DNA from: a virus
IMG/VR virus record: IMGVR_UViG_3300025154_000061
Span: 28,260-92,259 of that record
Strand: one strand, 5' to 3'
Length of the DNA: 64,000 nt
Shown here: positions 5,929-62,335 of the stretch, one piece after another
Position numbering within the stretch: position 1 is the stretch's first letter
Layout: each line of letters starts with the position of its first letter
Program-made: the position numbers and the translations under genes
Notes under the pieces: model-generated
Database searches by the model: none
What the model was told of the DNA's origin: nothing
The model's input: the letters and a program-made list of their open reading frames with translations, nothing else

Positions 5929-5969
5929 AAAAGTATTGACGTGCCTATCCTCCCCGACTATACCTGTAG
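5929..5969 (+). promoter_or_regulatory. Strong promoter for cobS-like gene (AAAAAGTATTGAC class)
   Basis: CAAAAAGTATTGAC ends at 5940 with -35 TTGAC at 5936-5940. After 17 bases comes TATACC at 5959-5964, then TGTAG. The same block recurs at 7036 and 53921 with the same 17-base spacer. Start codon of the AAA+ gene is 39 bases past the -10. Confidence 0.88.
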
Positions 5970-7028: not shown

Positions 7029-7069
7029 AAAAGTATTGACCCGTTGCGGCGCCCCGACTATACCTGTGG
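7029..7069 (+). promoter_or_regulatory. Strong promoter for cobT-like gene (AAAAAGTATTGAC class)
   Basis: CAAAAAGTATTGAC ending at 7040, 17-base spacer, TATACC at 7059-7064. Besides the -35 block, the bases CCCCGACTATACCTGT around the -10 are identical to the promoter at 5936. The ATG at 7101 is 37 bases past the -10. Confidence 0.88.
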
Positions 7070-7100: not shown

Positions 7101-9386
<2,286 letters not shown>

Positions 9387-9390
9387 GGTC

Positions 9391-10032
9391 ATGGGGCAGA
9401 TCGCGAAGGCAGTCGCGCTCGAAGTTCGTCAGTTCGCCCGCACGGCTACCCGGGCGATTCTCTTCCGGTTCCCGTGCGAGGCCGATCGGGAAGACCTCGA
9501 ACAAGAGGCGGCGATCGGGATCCTGCGCGCGCTCGGGAAGCTCGACGACGCGCGGCCCGAGGCCGAGCGCCGCTCGTTCTTGATCTGCGCGGGGCGTCGA
9601 GCCGCGATCGACGCGCTGCGGCACCGCAAGCGGCACGCGCGCGACGTTCTCGGGTTCGTGCCCGTAGAAGAGTCGGTCGATTGGAACGGCGCCGCCTTCG
9701 TGGGCTGCCGCGACGGCGTGCCGTCAACGGATCCGTGGGGCGAGTTCGCCTCGGCCGACGACCCCGACGGCGCGTTCGTGACCGCCGAGATCGCGGCGCG
9801 GATCGTTGACGTGCTCGAACTGGCCGAGTCGCGCATGACCCCGGGGCAGCGGGCGATCTTCCGCGCCCGCGTCTACGGCGAGATCGTGCCCGAGCAGTTC
9901 GCGCACGTCTCGCAGTCGGGGGTTCGGGATTTGGCGGCGCGTGCCCGTGCGTGCGTGAACGCGGCTTCGAGGGATCTAGGATGCGTCGATTTGATTGGTC
10001 CCGTCGAGTGCGTCGACTTGCTCGCGATCTAG
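9391..10032 (+). CDS. Sigma-70 family RNA polymerase sigma factor-like protein
   Basis: 213 residues, five bases after the cobT stop. Residues about 30-75 (DLEQEAAIGILRALGKL...FLICAGRRAAIDALRHRKR) match sigma region 2 in order and character, including the core-binding helix and a basic segment. Residues about 150-195 (MTPGQRAIF...SQSGVRDLAARAR) could be region 4, which reads -35 elements. Architecture without region 3 resembles ECF sigma factors. It could direct host polymerase to the phage promoters of type GCGACG-N16-CGTAGAA found from 27.8 kb onward. A sigma-like transcription regulator is the main alternative. Confidence 0.72.
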   Translation: MGQIAKAVALEVRQFARTATRAILFRFPCEADREDLEQEAAIGILRALGKLDDARPEAERRSFLICAGRRAAIDALRHRKRHARDVLGFVPVEESVDWNGAAFVGCRDGVPSTDPWGEFASADDPDGAFVTAEIAARIVDVLELAESRMTPGQRAIFRARVYGEIVPEQFAHVSQSGVRDLAARARACVNAASRDLGCVDLIGPVECVDLLAI

Positions 10033-10754
10033 GCGACCGGCCCGAGTGCGTGGGGCACTACGAGGCGGGCAATCTAGAGTGCGACGGCTCGCCCTCGTGC
10101 GCGTGGCGCGCGCCGTGCCGTGCCTATCGCGATCACTGCGCGATCCGGGGGATCAACCCCGAGGTCGAGAAGGCCGCGACGCCGCCCGACGCGCTCAATG
10201 CGTTGATCTTCGCCGTGCTTCGGCAAGCCCCGCCCGAGGGTGGGTATGCCCGTGCCCACAATTCAACGCGGGGCTGGCGCCGCTTCCTCGACGCCTACGT
10301 CGACGCGCTGCCCGAGGGCGTGGTCGTGCAAGCGTCGCGCGACGTCGCCCTCGTTGGCGAACTCTACGTCGTGACGTGGGCAGGGCGCCGCGAGGGGCGC
10401 ATTCGCGCGGGCGGGATCCGGGTGCGAACGACGATGAAGGGGAACGAGATCCCGATCGTGCGTTACTGGCCGACGCGTTACGACCGCATGACGCCCGAGA
10501 TCGAGATTCGGGCAGATCTCGCACGCCTGCTCGAAGTCTTTCCGGCCGCCCGGGGGATCCCGTGGCGTTGGTCGGAAAAGCACGCGAACGGCGAGGCGAA
10601 ACGCCCGCTCGGCTCGCTTGCGTCGAAGGTGCCGTCGGAACGGATCGAGGATATCGCCCGGCTCGCCGCCCGCGCTCTCGGGGCAGGCTTGATCCGCGAC
10701 TGCCGCGTTCGCGGTTCGGGCGTCGAAGTCAAAGGGAAGGGGGAACGATCATGA
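9981..10754 (+). CDS. Conserved-looking protein of unknown function
   Basis: 257 residues; ATG 9981 follows GGATCTAGG and overlaps the end of the sigma-like gene by 52 bases. The N-terminus has four cysteines (CVGH...CDGSPSCAWRAPC) that could bind a metal. The rest is mixed alpha/beta with many Arg and aromatic residues and no motif I recognise. The stop overlaps the next start (ATGA), so it belongs to the operon that leads into the polymerase gene. Confidence 0.6.
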   Translation: MRRFDWSRRVRRLARDLGDRPECVGHYEAGNLECDGSPSCAWRAPCRAYRDHCAIRGINPEVEKAATPPDALNALIFAVLRQAPPEGGYARAHNSTRGWRRFLDAYVDALPEGVVVQASRDVALVGELYVVTWAGRREGRIRAGGIRVRTTMKGNEIPIVRYWPTRYDRMTPEIEIRADLARLLEVFPAARGIPWRWSEKHANGEAKRPLGSLASKVPSERIEDIARLAARALGAGLIRDCRVRGSGVEVKGKGERS

Positions 10755-14300: not shown

Positions 14301-15000
14301 CGCGAAGGGGCGTTCTGCGTTCACGGTCGTCGAGCGCCTACTTCGAGAGGGGACACGCCGCGAGATCGCTACCGTGGGCGAAATCGCCGACGCTGGCGCC
14401 TACGTCGTGCTCGCCCGCGTCAGCGCCGCCCGGCTCTTCTCGGAAGACGGGGGCGGGAAGACGCTTCGAGTGCTGCTATCCGACAACGAGGGCGCCGAGG
14501 TCGCCGCGAAAGTCGATCAAGACGTGACCGAGGCGACGCTCGGGGTGCTCGACGATCCCGGTCGGCTCGTGCTCGTCGTGTTGCGCGTCTCGAATCGCGG
14601 GATGATCACGGTTGAAGTCGGGCTCGACGCGAACGCAGCGATCACCACGTCTTCGCCGCTCGCCGACGCGATCTTGCGCCCGAAGCGCACGAGCCCCCGC
14701 GACCCGGGCGCCGCCCTCGAACGCACCCCGCCCGACGCGTCGTTCGCTGCCGAGGGCGTGGTCGTGCGATCCTTGAAGCGCCGCGACAAGTCGGGGGGCA
14801 AGCTGCGCGTCGTGACCCTTGCCGGTTCGGCGGGCTTCGCGCGCTTCTTCGTCTTCGATCGTCGGCACCGCGCCGACGTCAAGGCGCTGACCGTCGGCGC
14901 TCGGGTGCGCGTCAAGTTGACGCGCCTCGAAGGCGACGCCGCCTGCCTCGCCGACGCGGCCGTCGAGGTGTGCGCGACGCTTGCGCCCGCCGTTTCGTAA
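11398..15000 (+). CDS. dnaE: DNA polymerase III alpha subunit (C family)
   Basis: 1200 residues, full-length for DnaE. The N-terminal PHP domain is intact in appearance (HCHVHTHASAFDGLG, TTEHG, QDAHYPR), so metal-dependent proofreading by PHP is possible. The palm has GPGRGSAAGSLVAY (about residues 397-410), the catalytic pair in LPDIDLDFED (about 437-446) and the third aspartate in VKIDVLGL (about 593). An HhH-like segment (IKGIGKPTAASIA) and an OB-like C-terminus follow. It replicates the phage chromosome; a matching clamp gene is at 35374. No epsilon, tau or clamp-loader gene is recognisable here, so loader functions may come from the host or from outside the window. Confidence 0.95.
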   Translation: MPENFVHCHVHTHASAFDGLGTASDFFKRAAEMGQVALATTEHGTLRGLYEATTAAKETGVKFIPGCEFYLADDALARGLTKEEKAAIEGAAARDGGDPKELAKAAERLRRERDHVTVWALDDEGLGNLIALSSWSWREGFYYKPRVDVARLTSRSRGLAISTGCLGGVVSAPLRVGDVRVAFDRLDRLVAAFPGRVYVELQPHCPPGAEGLAEKLARLARDYDLPVIATQDAHYPRRDDSVAQEALLCVGTRDKIANPDRFRFDSREYWLRSRAEMAEAFAANCPGLSSLVVEKALDETVAFAERCSARLALPGAGAYLAAPALPEGVTTYDAWLLHLCAIGSIARYGKSISDLPTEHLARLRAELTTIKSLGFAAYFAMVYDLRAWARAQGIFVGPGRGSAAGSLVAYLARIVDVDPIRHGLSFDRFLAPGRVDLPDIDLDFEDERRDEVLVYLRERYGEDRVAHISTVGTMRGKSLARDLGRIYGVPDRDVSAVASVLPDATEDVPMIEALASTAIGREFAERYPDVVDVATRLEGQMRGVGLHPAGVVVSRVPVATIAPVETRPRKGGERVAAVAWDMVAVEKAGFVKIDVLGLRALSFLRRACLLAGIADPTTIELEDAEALDAFTAHRFGGIFQFDTPSARKACRGFVFRRFADIAAMTALDRPGPMQTGMVAEFVKRSEDPSLVPAFNPVYDRITAETFGVVVYQEQIVALARELAGFTPEAADKFRKAISKKKREEVDAILPVFVKGCVDVGGMDRGDAEKFAESLEGFAEYCFNKAHAISYAAIALWSMHLKVHYPEAFFAAFLQTEPNAQVQLRVAAEARHLGIPVMPPDVNAAAEGLTLAYSSTGAAQIVNGIAEIKGIGKPTAASIAARAPFKSLVDFYDRTAGDGLRVTVATFELLARATAFRSLFPSVRFLVENAREVWDWLKVGVEPVLDVDYDYDGDTIARIAGEVCPLYVDAKGRSAFTVVERLLREGTRREIATVGEIADAGAYVVLARVSAARLFSEDGGGKTLRVLLSDNEGAEVAAKVDQDVTEATLGVLDDPGRLVLVVLRVSNRGMITVEVGLDANAAITTSSPLADAILRPKRTSPRDPGAALERTPPDASFAAEGVVVRSLKRRDKSGGKLRVVTLAGSAGFARFFVFDRRHRADVKALTVGARVRVKLTRLEGDAACLADAAVEVCATLAPAVS

Positions 15001-15026
15001 CACTGGCAGACCTGGGGGAACGAAGC

Positions 15027-20036: not shown

Positions 20037-21264
20037 TCTTCACGTCGTCGACGGTGAACTCGACACGCAAGGCCCCGTGCTCGACGAGATCGCCGCAGGG
20101 GTCGAAGAGGCCCGGCCCGATCTCGTGCTCGTCGTGGGCGATCTGTCGGGACACCGCGTCCCGCACAAGGCGACGCCCCGCGAGCGAAACGCGCTCGTCG
20201 GCTTCTTCGCGAAGCTGGCGCAGTGTGCGCCCGTCGTGATCGTGCGGGGGAATCACGACTACCCGCGCGATTGGGAGTTCCTGAACGCGATCGGCGGGCA
20301 TTCGTTCTACTCGATCGGGTTCGTCGACGAGCCTTCGACGCTGACCGCTGGCAAGGCGGGGGCGCTCGCGCTCGTCGCGTGCTTCCCGTGGGTCGACCGT
20401 TCCCGGTTCGGTCCCGACGTCGACTACGGCGAGGCCGTGCGCACGCTCTACGACGCCGTCGTCGACGAGGCGCGCTCGACGATCGCCACGCTGCCCGACG
20501 ACGAGTTGCCGAACGCCGTGGTCGCCCTCGGTCACTGCGCGATCGCCGGGGGCATGATCGGGATCTTCGGTCAACCGTCGGTCCCGACCGCCGATCCCGT
20601 GGTCGCGATCGACGACGTCTGCCCGAGCGACGTCTTCGACGCGGGGTTCTTCGGGCACTACCACGCGCCGCAGGAACTACCCCGAGAGGGCGAGAGCGGG
20701 GGCGCCGCGTGCCGCTACGTGGGAAGCGCTTTCGTGTCGCAGCACGGCGAAGCGACCGCGAAGTCGTGGGGCGTGGTCGATATCTCGGGCGAGGGCAAGG
20801 CCCGAGCGCGAGAGATCCCGATCCCGCAGGCCCCGCGCGTGCTCTTGCGCGTCGACGGCGTCGCCCGTCGCATCGTCGAGATCGTGCCCGCCGCCCTTGT
20901 CGGGCTCTCGGCCGGGACGTTGATCGACGAGTGCAAGCCGATCGCCTTACCTCGGGGCGCGCCGAGCGCGAGCGTGAAGGTGCGGATCGAGGGGGCGATC
21001 TCGATCACCGAGGCGGCCCGCGCGTTCGATGAGATCGCCGCGTTGGTCGCCCCGGCTGCGCACTCGATCAAGCGCGAGTTCGCGATCGAGCGCGTCGCCC
21101 GTGCTCGCGAGGGCGCCGACGAGATCGCCAAGGCGACGACGACGGCCGACAAGCTCGCGCGCTACCTCGACACGATCAACCCCGCGCCGAGAGGCGTGAT
21201 CCGCAAGCGGGCGATCGCGTTGCTGGCCGAAATCGAAGCGACGCTCGACGCCCCGATCGCGTAG
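20014..21264 (+). CDS. sbcD: SbcD/Mre11-like nuclease subunit
   Basis: 416 residues. Metallophosphoesterase motifs in order: GDLHVVDG (residues 7-14), GDLSGHR (about 43-49), GNHDYPRD (about 84-91) and GHYHAP (about 214-219). The C-terminal third is helical as in SbcD capping domains. With SbcC (23456) it forms a DNA end- and hairpin-processing nuclease (gp46/gp47-like). The two subunits are separated by two genes. Confidence 0.9.
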   Translation: MRLATIGDLHVVDGELDTQGPVLDEIAAGVEEARPDLVLVVGDLSGHRVPHKATPRERNALVGFFAKLAQCAPVVIVRGNHDYPRDWEFLNAIGGHSFYSIGFVDEPSTLTAGKAGALALVACFPWVDRSRFGPDVDYGEAVRTLYDAVVDEARSTIATLPDDELPNAVVALGHCAIAGGMIGIFGQPSVPTADPVVAIDDVCPSDVFDAGFFGHYHAPQELPREGESGGAACRYVGSAFVSQHGEATAKSWGVVDISGEGKARAREIPIPQAPRVLLRVDGVARRIVEIVPAALVGLSAGTLIDECKPIALPRGAPSASVKVRIEGAISITEAARAFDEIAALVAPAAHSIKREFAIERVARAREGADEIAKATTTADKLARYLDTINPAPRGVIRKRAIALLAEIEATLDAPIA

Positions 21265-21297
21265 TTCGGGCGAGGCGCGCACACCACGGGGGCGATC

Positions 21298-26356: not shown

Positions 26357-27359
26357 CCTCGCCGCCGCCAACGCCGAGAGCGCGAGGCGCTACGATTGGA
26401 CGCCTCGCGACTTCGGCGCGCTCGACTTCGACGACGTGCTCGCCGAGAAGGTGCGCGCGTTTCAGCGCGATCGCCTGCTCGACGAGACGGGCTTCGTCGA
26501 CGCCCGCACGTTCAAGGCGTTCCTGCAATGGCAGGTCGCCTACGACGACGGCTCGAAGGATCGCGAGCGCGAGGCGAACCCGCCGCCCGTCGCCGACGTC
26601 AGCGTCTATCCCGACAACGATCCGCGAGTGCTCGCGACGCGCGTCTTCCGCGCGTCGAACTGCGTCGTCTCGGCTCTCGATCCCGCGATCTGCGACGTGC
26701 TGACGGGCTGCGGAAAGAGGGCGAACGTGATCACCTCGCCCCGTGCGTGGGAAGGGGCCGCCCGCGCGTTCGAGGGCGCGCCCCTCGTCGACGTAGGGGC
26801 CGCGCTCTCGACCCGCATCCTAGACGAAGGTCGAGCGTCAGGCGCCAAGGGTTGCGCGTTCGCCGTCTTCGCCCTCTCGTCGGCCGACTTCGACACGAAC
26901 GAGCGCGCGCCGACGTGGGCGGGCGACACCGTCGCGCGAATCAAGGCGCTCGTCGGCGACGTGCCCGTCGGCGTGCTCACTGCGATCTGCGTGCGTGACG
27001 CCCGCCGCGTTGAACGTCGCCGCGCGTGGGCTCGGCTCGCCGCGTTCGACGCCGCGCTGCCCCTCGTGCCCGGCCCCTATACCGGGGTCGAGACTGCGAC
27101 GGGGCTCGCCTCGTTCGAGTGGGCGATCTATGGGCAGATCCGCGCGCCGTTTCAATTCCCCGTCTACGCTGGCCCCGCGAACGCCCCGATCGAGCAGCAA
27201 GAGCAAGAGCTTTTCCGTCTGCGCGATTGGCTTGCCCGGTGGGGGTTTCGGGGTTACGGTGCCCGGGTGTCGAGCGATAGGCTAGTCAAAGCCCTTGTCG
27301 GGGACGTCCCCCGCGAGGTGGTTCGGATCGACGTGCGCCGTGAAGGCGCCCAAGACTGA
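26340..27359 (+). CDS. Protein with peptidoglycan-binding-like N-terminus, function unclear
   Basis: 339 residues; ATG overlaps the end of sbcC by 17 bases. Residues about 30-60 (AEKVRAFQRDRLLDETGFVDARTFKAFL) resemble the helical PG_binding_1 repeat of lysins. The remainder is alternating hydrophobic and helical without a recognised catalytic motif; DWLARWGFRGYGAR near the end is notable. It could be an endolysin-like or virion-associated cell-wall protein. Coupling to sbcC makes a DNA-related role an alternative. Confidence 0.5.
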   Translation: MSRSHDLAAANAESARRYDWTPRDFGALDFDDVLAEKVRAFQRDRLLDETGFVDARTFKAFLQWQVAYDDGSKDREREANPPPVADVSVYPDNDPRVLATRVFRASNCVVSALDPAICDVLTGCGKRANVITSPRAWEGAARAFEGAPLVDVGAALSTRILDEGRASGAKGCAFAVFALSSADFDTNERAPTWAGDTVARIKALVGDVPVGVLTAICVRDARRVERRRAWARLAAFDAALPLVPGPYTGVETATGLASFEWAIYGQIRAPFQFPVYAGPANAPIEQQEQELFRLRDWLARWGFRGYGARVSSDRLVKALVGDVPREVVRIDVRREGAQD

Positions 27360-27369
27360 GGGGGATCCC

Positions 27370-27861
27370 ATGTTGGTATTCATGCAGCCCAACGTGATCG
27401 ACGCGATCAAGTCGTGCGTCGGGAAGGTGGTCGTGATCGAGACGGCCGAGGGTGTGACGCGCCGGGGCAAGCTGACGCAGATCCGCACGCGGGCGATCAA
27501 CGTCGGGGTGCGCACGGGCGAGCCCCGCGAGTTCGTGCCCGGCATTCGCGCGACTCGCTCGCGCGACTTCAACTTCCCGATCGAGTTCATCCTCGACGGC
27601 GACGCGGCCGATCCGATCCCGTTCGCGACCTGCTCGCGCTTCGACGTCGACGGGGTCGCCGAGAAGATCGACGTCGTCGCCGAACTCGCCGAGATCGAGA
27701 AGGCCGAGAAGAAGGGCGCCGAGCCCGCGAAGAAGCCCGCGCCCGAGGCGCCCGCCAAGGCCGAGCCCAAGACGTCGGCCGTCGACGACGCCTTCCCCGA
27801 TCCACCCCCGGCCGAGGGCAAGAAGGGCGTGGGCGCGACGCCCAAGGCGCCCAAGGCGTAG
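27370..27861 (+). CDS. Small beta-barrel-like protein with disordered tail
   Basis: 163 residues; ATG after GGGGG. The N-terminal segment GKVVVIETAEGVTRRGKLTQI resembles an Sm/SH3-like strand pattern. The C-terminus is Lys/Pro/Ala rich and contains SAVDDAFPD, also found in the tail of the probable SSB at 15910. Its stop TAG is part of the CGTAGAA box of the downstream promoter. Function unknown. Confidence 0.6.
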   Translation: MLVFMQPNVIDAIKSCVGKVVVIETAEGVTRRGKLTQIRTRAINVGVRTGEPREFVPGIRATRSRDFNFPIEFILDGDAADPIPFATCSRFDVDGVAEKIDVVAELAEIEKAEKKGAEPAKKPAPEAPAKAEPKTSAVDDAFPDPPPAEGKKGVGATPKAPKA

Positions 27862-27863
27862 AA
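27835..27863 (+). promoter_or_regulatory. GCGACG-N16-CGTAGAA promoter, copy 1
   Basis: GCGACG 27835-27840 and CGTAGAA 27857-27863, followed by GGGGCGAACG. It overlaps the 3' end of the preceding gene and lies 37 bases before GTG 27900. Confidence 0.82.
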
Positions 27864-29004: not shown

Positions 29005-29033
29005 GCGACGCACGGGCACGCCGACGCGTAGAA
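29005..29033 (+). promoter_or_regulatory. GCGACG-N16-CGTAGAA promoter, copy 2
   Basis: GCGACG 29005-29010, CGTAGAA 29027-29033, then CCGGGCGAAC. Located in the short gap after the transglycosylase gene, 27 bases before ATG 29060. Confidence 0.85.
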
Positions 29034-30935: not shown

Positions 30936-31111
30936 ACCGCGCCGACGACCTCGCCCTCGTGCTCGAAGTCTTCGCCGTGCGTTGGGTCGGGCAGACCTGC
31001 GCCCGCCTCGCTGGCGCGCAGACGTGGGCCTACGACCTCGACGTTCGCGAAGTGGGCTACCTCGCCCGGGTCGTGACGTTGATCGCGACGCCTGCCCCGC
31101 CTGACGCGTAG
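30932..31111 (+). CDS. Very small unknown protein
   Basis: 59 residues with a GTG start overlapping the previous stop. Its TAG stop lies inside the CGTAGAA box of the next promoter. Mostly helical and hydrophobic. Supported by coupling and codon use rather than homology. Confidence 0.45.
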   Translation: MNRADDLALVLEVFAVRWVGQTCARLAGAQTWAYDLDVREVGYLARVVTLIATPAPPDA

Positions 31112-31113
31112 AA
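31085..31113 (+). promoter_or_regulatory. GCGACG-N16-CGTAGAA promoter, copy 3
   Basis: GCGACG 31085-31090, CGTAGAA 31107-31113, then GGGGCGAACG as at 27863. 27 bases before GTG 31140 of the first of three tagged genes in a row. Confidence 0.85.
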
Positions 31114-34838: not shown

Positions 34839-34867
34839 GCGACGCCCGACCCCTTCCTCTCGTAGAA
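34839..34867 (+). promoter_or_regulatory. GCGACG-N16-CGTAGAA promoter, copy 4
   Basis: GCGACG 34839-34844, CGTAGAA 34861-34867, then CTCGGCGAAG. In a clean intergenic gap, 30 bases before ATG 34897; the clamp gene lies two genes downstream. Confidence 0.87.
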
Positions 34868-38102: not shown

Positions 38103-38131
38103 GCGACGCGCCCGACCTCGACGACGTAGAA
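38103..38131 (+). promoter_or_regulatory. GCGACG-N16-CGTAGAA promoter, copy 5
   Basis: GCGACG 38103-38108, CGTAGAA 38125-38131, then GGTGCGAACC. 29 bases before GTG 38160, the last rightward gene before the convergent gap. Confidence 0.86.
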
Positions 38132-39598: not shown

Positions 39599-40132
39599 CT
39601 AGAGGTCGTCGGGCCAGCCTTCGCCGCCCCGAGGAACCCCGCCCGGCTCGTCTTCGTCGAACGCGGCAGGGGCGGGGCAGCGAGCCCACAACGTGCGCCC
39701 GACACTCGGGCTCGGGTCGGCCCGCTTGCCTGCGCTCGCTGCCGCTCGCGTGCGTGAGGCGGGCGCGGTTTCCGGGGTGGAATCACGGGCGCCCGGCGCG
39801 GGGGTGGGAACGCCGGGCGATGTCTTCGACGGGGCGCGTCCTATCTTGGGAAGCTCGGGCTCGCGTGCCGTGGTCGCCATAGGGGCGATCTCGTCGGTGT
39901 AGAAGGTGTGCGTCGCCCGCTTCGTCAGCGAGTCAACGAGGTTCCGCATTTCGACGAGGCGCTTCCGGTCGACCTTCCCGAGCCCGTCGCAGACGTAGCG
40001 CGAGACGACGTCGATCACGTCGCCGAGCGTGCCGACTCGCCCGGCGATCCCCTGCGCGGCGGCGGGGGCCTCGACCTTGACGGTCGCCGGGCGCTTGGCG
40101 TCGAACTTGGCGCGCACCCCGTCGAGCTTCAC
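39599..40132 (-). CDS. Tagged protein, last gene of the leftward operon
   Basis: 177 residues. GTG at 40132 overlaps the previous stop. Starts VKLDGVRAKFDAKRPATV (tag variant), then a helical domain (TLGDVIDVVSRYVCDGL, RKRLVEMRNLVDSLTKRAT) and a long disordered Pro/Ala/Arg tail. Function unknown. Confidence 0.6.
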   Translation of the reverse strand: MKLDGVRAKFDAKRPATVKVEAPAAAQGIAGRVGTLGDVIDVVSRYVCDGLGKVDRKRLVEMRNLVDSLTKRATHTFYTDEIAPMATTAREPELPKIGRAPSKTSPGVPTPAPGARDSTPETAPASRTRAAASAGKRADPSPSVGRTLWARCPAPAAFDEDEPGGVPRGGEGWPDDL

Positions 40133-43209: not shown

Positions 43210-43238
43210 TTCTACGCCGCGACGGTCGGCGGCGTCGC
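43210..43238 (-). promoter_or_regulatory. GCGACG-N16-CGTAGAA promoter, leftward copy
   Basis: On the minus strand GCGACG is at 43238-43233 and CGTAGAA at 43216-43210, again 16 bases apart. It overlaps the rightward copy at 43219-43247, making an almost palindromic divergent pair. Drives the six-gene leftward operon, 27 bases from its first ATG. Confidence 0.87.
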
Positions 43239-43247
43239 GTCGTAGAA
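43219..43247 (+). promoter_or_regulatory. GCGACG-N16-CGTAGAA promoter, copy 6 (divergent)
   Basis: GCGACG 43219-43224, CGTAGAA 43241-43247, then TGGGCGAACG. 22 bases before ATG 43269. Shares 20 bases with the leftward copy, so two polymerases could not occupy both at once. Confidence 0.87.
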
Positions 43248-49171: not shown

Positions 49172-49200
49172 GCGACGCCCGACCCCTCCCCGACGTAAAC
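49172..49200 (+). promoter_or_regulatory. GCGACG-N16-CGTAAAC promoter, copy 7
   Basis: GCGACG 49172-49177; the -10 box here is CGTAAAC (49194-49200), the only variant box, followed by TCGGGCGACT. 28 bases before GTG 49228. Confidence 0.8.
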
Positions 49201-51989: not shown

Positions 51990-52946
51990 ATGGGCGACCA
52001 GATCGAGCGACTCACCGCCGAAGACCTCGCCGGATCCGGCGCCGCACGCGAGCACGTTCCCGCGCTGCTCGAACGATTGAACCTGCTCGTCGACCGCGCC
52101 AACGCTGGCGGCGACTCGGGGCTCACCTTCGAGACGATCGCCGCGCTGCGCGCGCAGTCAACCGAGGGCTTCCTATCCGGCCGTGCCGCGATCGTGAAGG
52201 CGGCGCAGATCGGCGGCGAAGGCCCGGCCGTCGCGGTCGAGTTCCTCTTCGCCGCGACGGTCGACGCGACGCTCTTCGCCGCCACCGACGAGGCGCGCGC
52301 CGAGGCCGAGGCGGCGCTCGTCGTGATCCCCAACGCGATCTGGCAAACGACGAAGGTCGGCGCGTGGTTGGGGGCGCTTCCCGCTGCCTACAACGGGGGC
52401 GGCGACACGGTCTCTTCGACGGGCAAGCTCGACGAGGCGATCTTCTCGGGGCACGTCTACTTCGGCGGCGAGACGGGCGGCGCGCCTGCCGAGCCGATCC
52501 TTCCGATCGACGAGTTCGTCGCCCCGTTTGCGTTCAATCCCGACCGCATTCGCGATCAAGACGGCGTCTACCTAGACGCGTTCCTGTCGGCGGCCGGGAA
52601 CGGCGCGGGGGCGGAGGGCAACGCCGACTTCCCGAACACGACGCGGCACGTATTCGCGCAGACCCTACGCTTCAAGGTGCGCCTGTGGGCGCTCCGCAAC
52701 GACGAGTTCGTCGCGCACGACGTCTCGCCCGCGATCGAGATCTCGCCCGTTCAACCGCAGGGGCGTTGGTCGCTGGCGCGCGTGTCGTGGCAGATCACGA
52801 AGCAAGACCTGACCCCGCCCGAGGGGTTCTCGGTCGTGGCGTGGGGGCTACAGGGCTACTGCGCCGGGTTGAACGCCGCGATCGTCCCGCACGTCGTTCT
52901 GACGATCTCGAACACCCCGGGCGGGCCGCCGTGGGTGAAGCTGTAG
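51990..52946 (+). CDS. Unknown protein, possibly structural
   Basis: 318 residues. The sequence is rich in Gly, Ala, Thr and Asn in beta-type patterns (HVYFGGETGG, GNADFPNTTRHVF, LTISNTPGGPPW), which is common for virion or tail proteins. N-terminal helix. No family recognised; it could be a capsid decoration or receptor-binding protein. Confidence 0.55.
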   Translation: MGDQIERLTAEDLAGSGAAREHVPALLERLNLLVDRANAGGDSGLTFETIAALRAQSTEGFLSGRAAIVKAAQIGGEGPAVAVEFLFAATVDATLFAATDEARAEAEAALVVIPNAIWQTTKVGAWLGALPAAYNGGGDTVSSTGKLDEAIFSGHVYFGGETGGAPAEPILPIDEFVAPFAFNPDRIRDQDGVYLDAFLSAAGNGAGAEGNADFPNTTRHVFAQTLRFKVRLWALRNDEFVAHDVSPAIEISPVQPQGRWSLARVSWQITKQDLTPPEGFSVVAWGLQGYCAGLNAAIVPHVVLTISNTPGGPPWVKL

Positions 52947-52974
52947 CGACGCGGGGCGCCCCGTCTTCGTAGAA
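52946..52974 (+). promoter_or_regulatory. GCGACG-N16-CGTAGAA promoter, copy 8
   Basis: GCGACG 52946-52951 begins one base after the stop of the previous gene; CGTAGAA 52968-52974, then GATCGCGAAG. 20 bases before GTG 52994, the shortest distance in the set. Confidence 0.84.
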
Positions 52975-54568: not shown

Positions 54569-54597
54569 GCGACGCCAGCCCCCGCCACGACGTAGAA
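54569..54597 (+). promoter_or_regulatory. GCGACG-N16-CGTAGAA promoter, copy 9
   Basis: GCGACG 54569-54574, CGTAGAA 54591-54597, then GGGCCGAAGC. 28 bases before ATG 54625. Confidence 0.86.
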
Positions 54598-55034: not shown

Positions 55035-55063
55035 GCGACGACGGCGCCCCCGCAGGCGTAGAA
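55035..55063 (+). promoter_or_regulatory. GCGACG-N16-CGTAGAA promoter, copy 10
   Basis: GCGACG 55035-55040, CGTAGAA 55057-55063, then GGGGCGAGAA. 30 bases before ATG 55093. Confidence 0.86.
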
Positions 55064-57485: not shown

Positions 57486-57514
57486 GCGACGATCTGCCGT
57501 CGTTGCGCGTAGAA
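57486..57514 (+). promoter_or_regulatory. GCGACG-N16-CGTAGAA promoter, copy 11
   Basis: GCGACG 57486-57491, CGTAGAA 57508-57514, then TCGCCCAAGA. 30 bases before ATG 57544; the rightmost copy, leading into the regulator and terminase genes. Confidence 0.86.
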
Positions 57515-59103: not shown

Positions 59104-60540
59104 ATGGCCCCGCGTGCGACTCGCGCCTCGTTGCACGATCGCCGGGCGGTGATCAAGAAACTCGAAGAGATCCGCGAGACTCGGCGCGATTGGTTGCGGC
59201 GCCAGATCCTAGAGAAAGACCGGATCGACCTGCTCGCGACCGAGGTTCTCGGCTTGCAGGTCGAGCCGCATCATTTCGCCATGATCGCGCACCAACACCG
59301 CTACTCGCCCGACCCCGGCTGCATGATCCTGTGCTGGCGTGGCGCGGGGAAGACGAGTATCACGAGCGTAGCCCGAACGGTCTTCAAGCTCTTGAAGAAC
59401 CCCGACGAGCGGATCCTCTTGGCGTCGAAGTCGGGCACGAACGCGGTCGGGATCCTGTCGGAAGTGAAGCGGCGTCTCGTGCTGCCCGAGGTCGAAGAGA
59501 TCTTCGGGCCGCAGATCGGCGACAAGTGGGACGACGTCGAGATCAACGTCGCGGGCCGCAAGTCGGCGTCGAAAGAGTCGAACGTCACCGCGATCGGCGC
59601 CGAGTCGGCCGTCGTCTCGCGGCACTACGACGCGATCAACGCCGACGACCTCGTCGACGAGAAGAACTCGCGAACGCGCTACATGCGCGACCAGATCAAG
59701 ACGTTCCTCTACAAAACGCTCTTGCCGACGCTCGAACCCGGGGGCGAGTTCTCGGTTCAGGGCACGCGCTACCACGATCAAGACCTCTACGGGCACCTCG
59801 TCGAGAACGAACTCGCGGGGCGCGTGCTCGTGATCCCGGCCCTCGTCGGCAGCGAGGAACACGGCTACCGCTCGAACTGGCCCGCGAAGTTCCCGGTCGA
59901 GTGGTTGTTGCAGCGTCGCGCGAGCATGGGCTCGATCCTCTTCGACGGGCAATATCGCTGCGATACCGCGAAGATGAAGGGCGGCGGGGTCTTCGATATC
60001 GACGACGTCGACACGATCGCGCTCTCGCAAGTTCCGGCCGGGCTGCCGCGCTACCTCGGCGTCGACCTCGCGATCTCGCAGAAGGCGAAGGCCGACCGCT
60101 TCTTCGCGGTCGTGATCGCCTACGACGCCGCGACCGATACCGTCTATGTCGTCGACAACGTCTACGGGCGCTTCTCGTTCGTCAAGCAGCGCGAGATCGT
60201 GATCGACCTGTGCGACCGTCACTCGATCGTCAGGGGCGCGATCGAAGCGCAGTTCTATCAAGCCGCCTTGTGGCAGGAAGTGAAGCGCGAGCGGCCCGAC
60301 CTGCCGATCGTGGCGTGGCAACAACGCGTCGACAAGTTGACGAGGGCGCAGCGCTTCTCGGCCCGGTTCGAGGGCGGGAAGGTGCATTTCGTTCACGGGC
60401 TAGACACCCTCGTCGAAGAACTGATAGCATTCCCCGACGGGGAGCACGACGACGGCTTCGACGGCCTCGATCTCGCCGTCGCCGCGACGCGAGCCCGTTC
60501 TCGCAAACCGGCCCGCGATCGCGAGCCGGGCGTTTTCTGA
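59104..60540 (+). CDS. terL: Terminase large subunit
   Basis: 478 residues. ATPase: Walker A CWRGAGKTS (about residues 77-85) and Walker B YDAINADDLVDE (about 174-185). RNase H-like nuclease: GVDLAIS (about 319), EAQFYQ (about 381) and DGFDGLDLAV (about 450). It pumps and cuts phage DNA during packaging. Directly after TerS and before the portal. Confidence 0.92.
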   Translation: MAPRATRASLHDRRAVIKKLEEIRETRRDWLRRQILEKDRIDLLATEVLGLQVEPHHFAMIAHQHRYSPDPGCMILCWRGAGKTSITSVARTVFKLLKNPDERILLASKSGTNAVGILSEVKRRLVLPEVEEIFGPQIGDKWDDVEINVAGRKSASKESNVTAIGAESAVVSRHYDAINADDLVDEKNSRTRYMRDQIKTFLYKTLLPTLEPGGEFSVQGTRYHDQDLYGHLVENELAGRVLVIPALVGSEEHGYRSNWPAKFPVEWLLQRRASMGSILFDGQYRCDTAKMKGGGVFDIDDVDTIALSQVPAGLPRYLGVDLAISQKAKADRFFAVVIAYDAATDTVYVVDNVYGRFSFVKQREIVIDLCDRHSIVRGAIEAQFYQAALWQEVKRERPDLPIVAWQQRVDKLTRAQRFSARFEGGKVHFVHGLDTLVEELIAFPDGEHDDGFDGLDLAVAATRARSRKPARDREPGVF

Positions 60541-60556
60541 CGGGGAGGGGGCGATC

Positions 60557-62335
60557 ATGGCCGACGAGTTGACGAAGAAGGTCGCGGACGCAGCCCGCGC
60601 CGTTCGCTCGCTGACCGCCCGAATCTTCCCCGACTCGTCGCGAATCATGAAGGCCGCCGCGTCTGACTCGACGACGCCAGCCTCGAAGGCGATCTCGACC
60701 GACGACCTCTTCGCGTCGGTGAGTGGGCGGATCGTCGACCCGCCCTACGATCCCGCCGTGCTTGTCGAACTCGCGACGCAGTCGAGCGAACTCGGGCAGG
60801 CCGTCGAGGCAATGGAAACGAATATCGCGGGCTTCGGCTGGCGCATCGTCCCGACCCACGTCCTACCGAAAGACGCGCCCGCCGACGTCGTCAAGCGGGC
60901 GTCGTGGGAAAAGACCTTCGTCAAGAATTTCTTCGACTACTGCTCGATCGGGCAGCGCTTGTCGTTCACGGCGCTACGTCGCCGCGTGCGCAAAGACGCC
61001 GAGATCGTGGGCTACGCCTTCGTCGAGATCGTGTGCAACCTGAACGGGCGGATCGTCGAGTTCCGGCACCTCCCGGCGCATACCGTCAGGCTCGGGAAAG
61101 AGTCGACCGACCTCGTCGAGTTCAACGAGCCCGTCTTGACGCAGGGCGAAGACGGCTCGGTTGTCTACGAGATTCGGTTGATCCTGCGTCGGGCGCGCCT
61201 CTTCGCGCAGGGCGGGGGATCGACGTCAAAGGTGCGTTGGTTCAAAGAGGTCGGCGACGCCCGCGTGATCGACAACGAGACGGGCGAGGTCGTGCCGCCT
61301 GAGCAGGTCGCGTCGTTCGGGAACACCAACGAGCCCATGCCCGAGAGCCGCAAGGCGGGCGAACTGCTTTACTTTTCGCTCTACTTCCCGGGAACCCCCT
61401 ACGGCGTGCCGCGTTGGATCGGCAACACGACGGCGGTTCTCGGGGTGCGTCAGGCCGAAGAGACGTCGTATCATACGATGAAAAACAACATGATCCCTTC
61501 GGCTTTCATTACGGTTTCCGACGGTCGGTTGACCCCGACGTCGATTGACCGGATCTCGCAGTTCGTCGACGAGTCGATCAAGGGCGAGTCGAACTATTCG
61601 CGCTTCGTGTTGCTCGAAGCCGAAGCCGAGTTCGAGGGCGACACCCCGGGCGCCCCGAAGATCGACGTCAAGCCCATGACCGATATGCAGCGCACCGAAG
61701 GGCTTTTCCCCAATTATATCGAGCTTTCCAAAGACTCGATCCGCCGCTCGTTCCGCCTGCCCGGGATCTTCGTGGGCTCGGTAAAAGACGTCAACAAGTC
61801 GAACCTCGACGGATCGCGCGCGCTCGCCGACGAGCAGGTCTTCGCCCCCGAGCGCACCGAAGAGGATTGGACTTGGAACGTCGTCGTCTTGGCGCGCCTC
61901 GGGATCCTGCACTACCGGATCGCGAGCCGCACGCCGAACGTCACCGACAACCAAGAGTTGATCTCCATGCTCTCGGTCGTCGAGCGCACGGGCGGGCTCA
62001 CCCCGAGGATTGCGCGAAGCGTCGTCGAAGACGTCTTCCCGAGCGCGGCCGAGGCGCCGCCGCTCGACTCGGAGAAGTTCGATCCCGACGTGCCGTTCTC
62101 GCTGACGTTGGCCGAGCGCATGAAGAACCTTGCCGACCCGACCGAACCAAACCAAACGACCGCCCCGGTCATGGGCGCGCGAGGCGACGCCGTCACGCAG
62201 CGCGCCGACCCCGAGCCGAAGGCCGACGAGGGCGATCTCTTCGGGGTTCACCTTCGCCGGTTGATCGACGTCTCGGGGCGCGCCAATGCCGAATTGAAGA
62301 GGGCGATCGGTGTGCCTTCCCACGACCCCGACTGA
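60557..62335 (+). CDS. Portal protein
   Basis: 592 residues, ATG after GGGGAGGGGG. LSFTALRRRVRKDAEIVGYAFVE, SRKAGELLYFSLYFPGTPYG and YIELSKDSIRRSFRLPGIF follow the order of PBSX/HK97-like portal proteins. It forms the dodecameric DNA entry ring. The acidic C-terminus overlaps the next gene by 26 bases. Confidence 0.87.
   Translation: MADELTKKVADAARAVRSLTARIFPDSSRIMKAAASDSTTPASKAISTDDLFASVSGRIVDPPYDPAVLVELATQSSELGQAVEAMETNIAGFGWRIVPTHVLPKDAPADVVKRASWEKTFVKNFFDYCSIGQRLSFTALRRRVRKDAEIVGYAFVEIVCNLNGRIVEFRHLPAHTVRLGKESTDLVEFNEPVLTQGEDGSVVYEIRLILRRARLFAQGGGSTSKVRWFKEVGDARVIDNETGEVVPPEQVASFGNTNEPMPESRKAGELLYFSLYFPGTPYGVPRWIGNTTAVLGVRQAEETSYHTMKNNMIPSAFITVSDGRLTPTSIDRISQFVDESIKGESNYSRFVLLEAEAEFEGDTPGAPKIDVKPMTDMQRTEGLFPNYIELSKDSIRRSFRLPGIFVGSVKDVNKSNLDGSRALADEQVFAPERTEEDWTWNVVVLARLGILHYRIASRTPNVTDNQELISMLSVVERTGGLTPRIARSVVEDVFPSAAEAPPLDSEKFDPDVPFSLTLAERMKNLADPTEPNQTTAPVMGARGDAVTQRADPEPKADEGDLFGVHLRRLIDVSGRANAELKRAIGVPSHDPD

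Follow-up and report, generated by a model that had tools for sequence, protein, structure and literature searches.

The gene at positions 9391-10032 of the window, the 64,000-nucleotide stretch analysed here, encodes a sigma-like protein, and the same stretch carries a recurrent two-box promoter motif, which raises the question whether the viral protein reads these promoters. The window corresponds to bases 28260-92259 of a virus record of 92,259 bases, which is G000 in the comparisons; positions are those of the window unless the record is named. Genes for terminase, portal, capsid-type, sheath and baseplate proteins identify the virus as a contractile-tailed phage. By capsid alignment no relative was found in the genome_contigs collection. 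The phages database contains no near isolate, the best capsid match reaching 26% over 93%.

The open reading frame 9391-10032 (plus strand) is coding-like and lies 4 nt downstream of a vWA/CobT-like gene (7101-9386, plus strand), its conserved upstream neighbour, whose product contains long acidic low-complexity repeats (7760-8395). The encoded protein of 213 residues, P0001, consists of a sigma2 domain (residues ∼1-86), a linker (∼87-124) and a sigma4 domain (∼125-195). Sigma2 is recognized by the Pfam model Sigma70_r2 (PF04542) with an E-value of 7.9e-9, over its cut-off. The TIGR02937 model of the ECF superfamily covers residues 12-187 (profile positions 14-159 of 165) with 38.5 bits, against a curated cut-off of 42.9. 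As a yardstick, the proven phage sigma factors gp47 of 7-11 and gp36 of phiEco32 score 54.8 and 23.3 bits, such that P0001 falls between them; since gp36 scores only 23.3 bits, the cut-off is not decisive for phage sigma factors. The Pfam region-4 models do not match P0001. Sigma4 is indicated by the C-terminal helices of the predicted model, which in a Foldseek search match the isolated sigma4 domain of Mycobacterium tuberculosis SigL (3hug_E, TMt 0.66), and a family profile of seven sequences aligns to RpoD over regions 2-4 with an E-value of 2.4e-8.

The structure model of P0001, built together with six relatives, is of modest quality (pLDDT 65.8, pTM 0.40). It shows two better-predicted helical domains (residues 2-86 and 125-195), connected by a loose linker of low confidence (86-127), and contains no sigma1 or sigma3 domain. 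The 50 Foldseek matches listed for the model are sigma factors, with the M. tuberculosis ECF factor SigL as the best (E-value 4.8e-3) and none below 0.001, and a structural superposition of sigma2 gives 2.3 Å over 72 residues. With TIGR02937 a single sigma factor is found in the entire 92-kb record. The first-pass annotation, which had described the gene as the only sigma-like one in the window, with region 2, a possible region 4 and the ECF architecture, and had proposed a structural comparison with ECF factors, is borne out on all these points. It is nearly certain that 9391-10032 encodes a sigma factor, for which a two-domain, ECF-like fold is predicted. A scan with P0001 as a single sequence revealed no close relative in viral_contigs, and in the phages database only four weak matches (E-values 0.3-0.5).

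The promoter class is real as a sequence feature. The motif GCGACG-N16-CGTARA occurs 13 times in the 64-kb window, compared to 0.04 copies expected, and none of 100 shuffles reaches 13. Across the record, the boxes GCGACG and CGTA[GA]A are separated by 16 nt in 14 cases, against 0-2 cases at every other length from 4 to 30. De novo counting of dyads in upstream regions gives 12, with a shuffled maximum of 3, and an unconstrained two-box EM search of this record reaches a log-likelihood of 152.8, with 48-54 in shuffles; no other class of comparable strength was found de novo in this record. ECF promoters have two boxes approximately 16-17 nt apart and a CGT-type -10 element, a layout to which the class, with its 16-nt spacer and CGTAGAA box, conforms. 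A scan of viral_contigs with the class motif as a DNA pattern gave, among the matches listed, single hits only, which are probably due to chance.

Twelve of the thirteen copies are located upstream of genes and in gene orientation. They are found at 27835-27863, 29005-29033, 31085-31113, 34839-34867, 38103-38131, 43219-43247, 49172-49200 (with the variant CGTAAAC), 52946-52974, 54569-54597, 55035-55063 and 57486-57514 on the plus strand, and at 43210-43238 on the minus strand, where the site forms a divergent pair at 43.2 kb with that of 43219. By our own gene calls, the -10 box begins 26-43 nt before the start codon in 11 of the 12 upstream sites, the distance in the twelfth (57486) depending on the choice of start codon. 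The earlier description of a twelve-copy promoter class with ECF-like spacing thus holds. The thirteenth copy (9641-9669, plus strand), with the full consensus GCGACG-N16-CGTAGAA, lies inside the sigma gene and is the sole copy within any called coding sequence. No such copy arose in 200 codon-resampling trials, and the site contains a GTA codon, which accounts for 1.8% of the valine codons here; it may be an internal or autoregulatory promoter.

Weaker class sites are present at 14974-15002 (CGTAACA, plus strand), in the 3′-terminal part of dnaE and upstream of an HU-like gene, at 21238-21266 (CGTAGTT, plus strand), and at record position 27328 (CGTAGAG), where the site ends ∼7 nt short of the probable start of an intein-bearing helicase. 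The block around the sigma gene, which had been described as early-looking and lacking these promoters, is therefore nearly as stated, apart from the full copy at 9641 and the weaker ones at 14974 and 21238. The helicase itself is probably split by an intein (window 1 to ∼711, and L003 from 13364), which begins upstream of the window, ends near 711 and bears the marks CFPAGTLV and TPNHPFFT at its N-terminal and GFVVHNC at its C-terminal side.

Promoters of the sigma70 type occur in the same genome. TTGACC-N17-TATACC (7036-7064, plus strand) precedes the operon of the vWA and sigma genes, TTGACG-N17-TATACC (5936-5964, plus strand) precedes the gene of a CobS-like ATPase, and further ones are found before the protease/capsid operon (record position 153) and at a few other places. 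These sites mostly have TTGAC and a 17-nt spacer. In all twelve class sites, in contrast, the -35 box (GCGACG) begins with GC and never with TT, and is thus not TTGACA-like. As judged from their sequences, these are two separate promoter classes in one genome. Among the relatives described below, G015 also has a sigma70-type promoter at p≤0.01 before the ATPase gene, as this record has before both the ATPase and the vWA gene; in G001, G002, G009, G011 and G014 no such promoter reaches significance before either gene. In several non-class leaders the ribosome-binding site is preceded by a short, hairpin-like stretch built around ATGACGC or ACGACGCC (window 6003, 7101, 32615, 34085, 53991 and, on the minus strand, 57340), those of 32615 and 34085 being near-identical.

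When the complete record was scanned with a matrix, none of the class sites stood immediately upstream of a capsid or tail gene, from which it follows that the private class would serve accessory operons and those bordering the replication block; a "late" role in the sense of structural genes is not supported by the arrangement of the sites. The cascade that had been proposed, with host sigma70 promoters acting before those of the phage sigma factor, stands only in part. The good sigma70-type promoter before the vWA-sigma operon agrees with it, but the protease/capsid operon also has a sigma70-type promoter, and class sites are missing before the capsid and tail genes.

To place the locus in a wider context, relatives were collected by terminase, capsid and ATPase searches, which yielded seven further long records with a common gene order, eight with the present one. 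Among 80 ATPase loci, five have a match to the sigma family model at E≤1, of which G014 and G015 were taken in and L215, L219 and L230 left out. No sigma match was obtained in G005 and G006, which are more distant terminase relatives, and six records (G003, G004, G007, G008, G012 and G013) are short fragments that do not show the sigma region. A sigma-like open reading frame is present in all eight long records and in seven of them lies between the vWA (CobT-like) gene and dnaE; G010 has no vWA or dnaE match, hence the position cannot be assessed there. TIGR02937 detects the sigma factor in G000, G002, G009, G010 and G011. The G001 protein, with a weak Pfam match (0.0087), was assigned by its homology to that of G002 and by its position, and those of G014 and G015 by the local family model, the latter without a Pfam sigma match. 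The sequence identity of P0001 to these proteins is 13-21%. The GC content in the lineage ranges from 38 to 68%, which suggests that the hosts are probably distant from each other.

The letters of the motif are essentially private to this record: GCGACG-N16-CGTA has 18 copies in G000 and 0 or 1 per record in the others that were searched, none of which was seen to keep the class promoters without a sigma gene. Five of the seven relatives (G001, G002, G009, G014 and G015) each have their own over-represented upstream element, found in searches that were exploratory, with definitions refined on the same data that were used for counting. In G001 this is RGTCM-N16-GYKAAYCAT (7 sites), with GTCC-N16-GCGAAYC occurring 6 times and at most once at other spacings. 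In G002 it is RCCMV-N16-RGAACTGT (7 sites, one of them at 17 nt), with GAACTGT in 8 upstream regions compared to 0.17-0.2 expected. Both elements have the 16-nt geometry of the present record with other letters. Two-box EM fits for these two genomes (64.1 and 66.9, against 46-52 in shuffles) were set aside as GC-rich noise, and k-mer, anchored and spacer tests were used instead. G009 has a weak class, with GCTGTAG in 6 upstream regions and 0.33 expected. The G014 element is TTTTCGCTTACT, with 7 sites, some of which precede the ATPase gene, the called vWA start (by 284 nt) and the next gene, and that of G015 is GTTGAAGCGAA, with 18 sites; neither shows a clear 16-nt two-box layout. Most of the G015 copies (L298-L303) are embedded in a longer element, AAAAGTTGTTGCGTTGAAGCGAA, followed by GCTAG, and many are close to start codons. 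By k-mer, anchored and spacer searches no convincing class was found in G010 and G011.

The elements are private to their own genomes save for strays (one of the G000 type in G001 and one of the G002 type in G010), and the short G009 pattern also matches four times in G002 and once in G000. Some positions recur. G001 and G002 have a site of their own element directly after the sigma gene, and the end of dnaE carries the local element in G000 (the weaker site at 14974), G001, G002 and G009; the upstream sequences of G014 and G015 contain no equivalent promoter after dnaE. The co-occurrence of gene and motif in related phages, which had been suggested as a check, therefore does not extend to the letters of the motif, and on these comparisons would hold only in the sense that most relatives have something.

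Directly downstream of the sigma gene lies a gene (10050-10754, plus strand) for a protein with a cluster of cysteines (CDG..C..R..C). A protein with the pattern CDG-x(2-18)-C-x2-[RK]-x2-C occurs once per genome in seven of the eight records, G010 being the exception, and is not matched by any of 4915 shuffled proteins. Its gene directly follows the sigma gene in six of the eight records, and in G011 the counterpart shares one open frame with sigma (60136-61965). The protein belongs to no Pfam family in the two copies scanned, and four of five separate copies have no PHROGs match, the G001 copy touching phrog_3616 at 0.026; the predicted model is poor (pLDDT 41.8). It may be a cofactor of the sigma factor, for which a conserved and once-fused neighbour is a concrete candidate. 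Ten otherwise different genes, at 10751, 31140, 31346, 31756, 48197 and 52994 on the plus strand and at 39599, 40895, 41125 and 42102 on the minus strand, open with a similar N-terminus (approximately MKLxDARxRF), possibly a shared N-terminal tag, and similar N-termini occur in relatives (MPTLEEIRSRF, MPTLDELRARF and MKLTDLRKRY).

The best explanation of these observations, to which we assign a probability of roughly three in four, is that the phage sigma factor reads the private promoter class. The sigma gene and the vWA gene would be expressed together from the host-type sigma70 promoter, upon which the phage factor would join the host core RNA polymerase and redirect it to promoters with GCGACG as -35 and CGTAGAA as -10 element, 16 nt apart. 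This class would drive small accessory genes in roughly twelve operons, along with operons that border the replication block; the order of expression in this scheme is one that we infer. The explanation is preferred because of the sigma fold, the statistics of the class, the fixed spacer, the orientation of the sites along the genes, the single sigma factor in the record, the conserved locus and the elements that relatives have of their own. It is further supported by a precedent, since a phage sigma factor with private promoters has been proven biochemically, according to the available text of PMC8948821.

Alternatively, the class could be read by a host sigma factor, be it of the ECF type, another alternative factor or a variant primary one, with the phage protein acting otherwise or elsewhere. 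TAGAA in the -10 and GAC in the -35 box partly resemble TATAAT and TTGACA at an 18-nt spacer, giving the twelve class sites sigma70 scores of 4.9-5.85, and differing hosts could account for the differing elements of the relatives. Compared to shuffles, however, 11 of 14 class regions contain no better sigma70 sites at p 0.075, and the three that reach 0.03-0.035 do so because of the resemblance of TAGAA to TATAAT. In addition, GC instead of TT in 12 of 12 sites sets the class apart from the TTGAC and 17 nt of this genome's sigma70-type sites, and a conserved phage sigma factor needs targets, for which the de novo search offered no other comparable class here. We therefore consider a host factor unlikely as the reader of the class.

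It is still less probable that a different regulator of the phage, an activator or repressor, binds the boxes, which would then not be -35 and -10 elements. Such sites would be in line with the long, not clearly two-box elements of G014 and G015 and with the partial conservation of GCGAA after the -10 box in this record, but two boxes with an unconserved 16-nt spacer, which in 11 of 12 cases lie 26-43 nt (-10 box) ahead of the start codon, have the geometry of promoters, and G001 and G002 repeat this layout with different letters. The slimmest chance is given to a decayed or repurposed sigma2/sigma4 protein, for example an inhibitor of the host sigma factor, with the class being read in another way. 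The high divergence (13-21% identity to the relatives) and the G015 protein without a Pfam sigma match could be taken as signs of decay. Yet a sigma-like gene is retained in eight of eight lineage records, both domains can be modelled, and the proven sigma factors of phiEco32 and 7-11 are themselves reportedly only 15% identical, as given in the available part of PMC8948821.

With the phage sigma factor as the reader of the class, a broader picture can be drawn, which is put forward tentatively, at less than even odds. In an uncultivated lineage of tailed phages with a syntenic sigma gene and a Cys-cluster partner, the promoter class would have been rewritten several times (at least five elements), forming a two-part switch that co-evolves with its promoters and controls accessory and replication-edge operons and, via promoters in or beside the sigma gene, also itself. 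Phage sigma factors with promoters of their own are already known from phiEco32 and 7-11, but few sigma-promoter pairs have been matched. Up to six candidate pairs at one locus in one lineage make the joint change of sigma factor and promoter testable. In the literature searched, no report of this lineage or of its sigma-promoter pair was found.

Among the closest known systems is that of Salmonella phage 7-11, in which gp47, a phage sigma factor with region 4, reads two-box private promoters with the same 16-nt spacer (GTAAtg-(16)-aCTA); its boxes are different, and its eight promoters are upstream of late genes, the early genes being served by host sigma70 (available text of PMC8948821), whereas the class described here is found at accessory and replication-edge operons. 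In the E. coli phage phiEco32, gp36 is likewise a phage-encoded factor of the ECF type, with six private middle and late promoters (PMC4281155, PMC8948821, as far as their available text goes). Unlike P0001, gp36 has no region 4 and recognizes one box only, tAATGTAtA, and the authors relate the absence of a -35 box to that of region 4 (PMC8948821, same portion). Systems of this kind are also treated in the accessible portions of PMC4331800 and PMC4281155. P0001 has no specific homology to gp47 (blastp E-value 11, hhalign probability 1.8%) or to gp36 (hhalign probability 0.4%), and, whereas phiEco32 has the reported regulator gp79, a different neighbour, the Cys-cluster gene as a candidate cofactor, is found here. 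With bacterial ECF factors such as M. tuberculosis SigL and Bacillus subtilis SigW, P0001 shares the two-domain sigma2-sigma4 organization; in contrast to these it is viral and scores under the TIGR02937 cut-off, and no anti-sigma gene was recognized here. Promoters of the SigW type have a CGT-type -10 box and 16-nt spacing, as does the present class, whereas the usual ECF -35 box is of the AAC type and that of the class is GCGACG. The late sigma factor gp55 of phage T4 matches sigma2 structurally (7d7c_F, Z 8.5, 3.7 Å over 86 residues); to our knowledge it has no sigma4 of the kind modelled here, while P0001 has a modelled sigma4 domain and its putative promoters a conserved -35 box. By all signs the pair of sigma factor and promoter class would work like the gp36 and gp47 systems, without being a member of their family.
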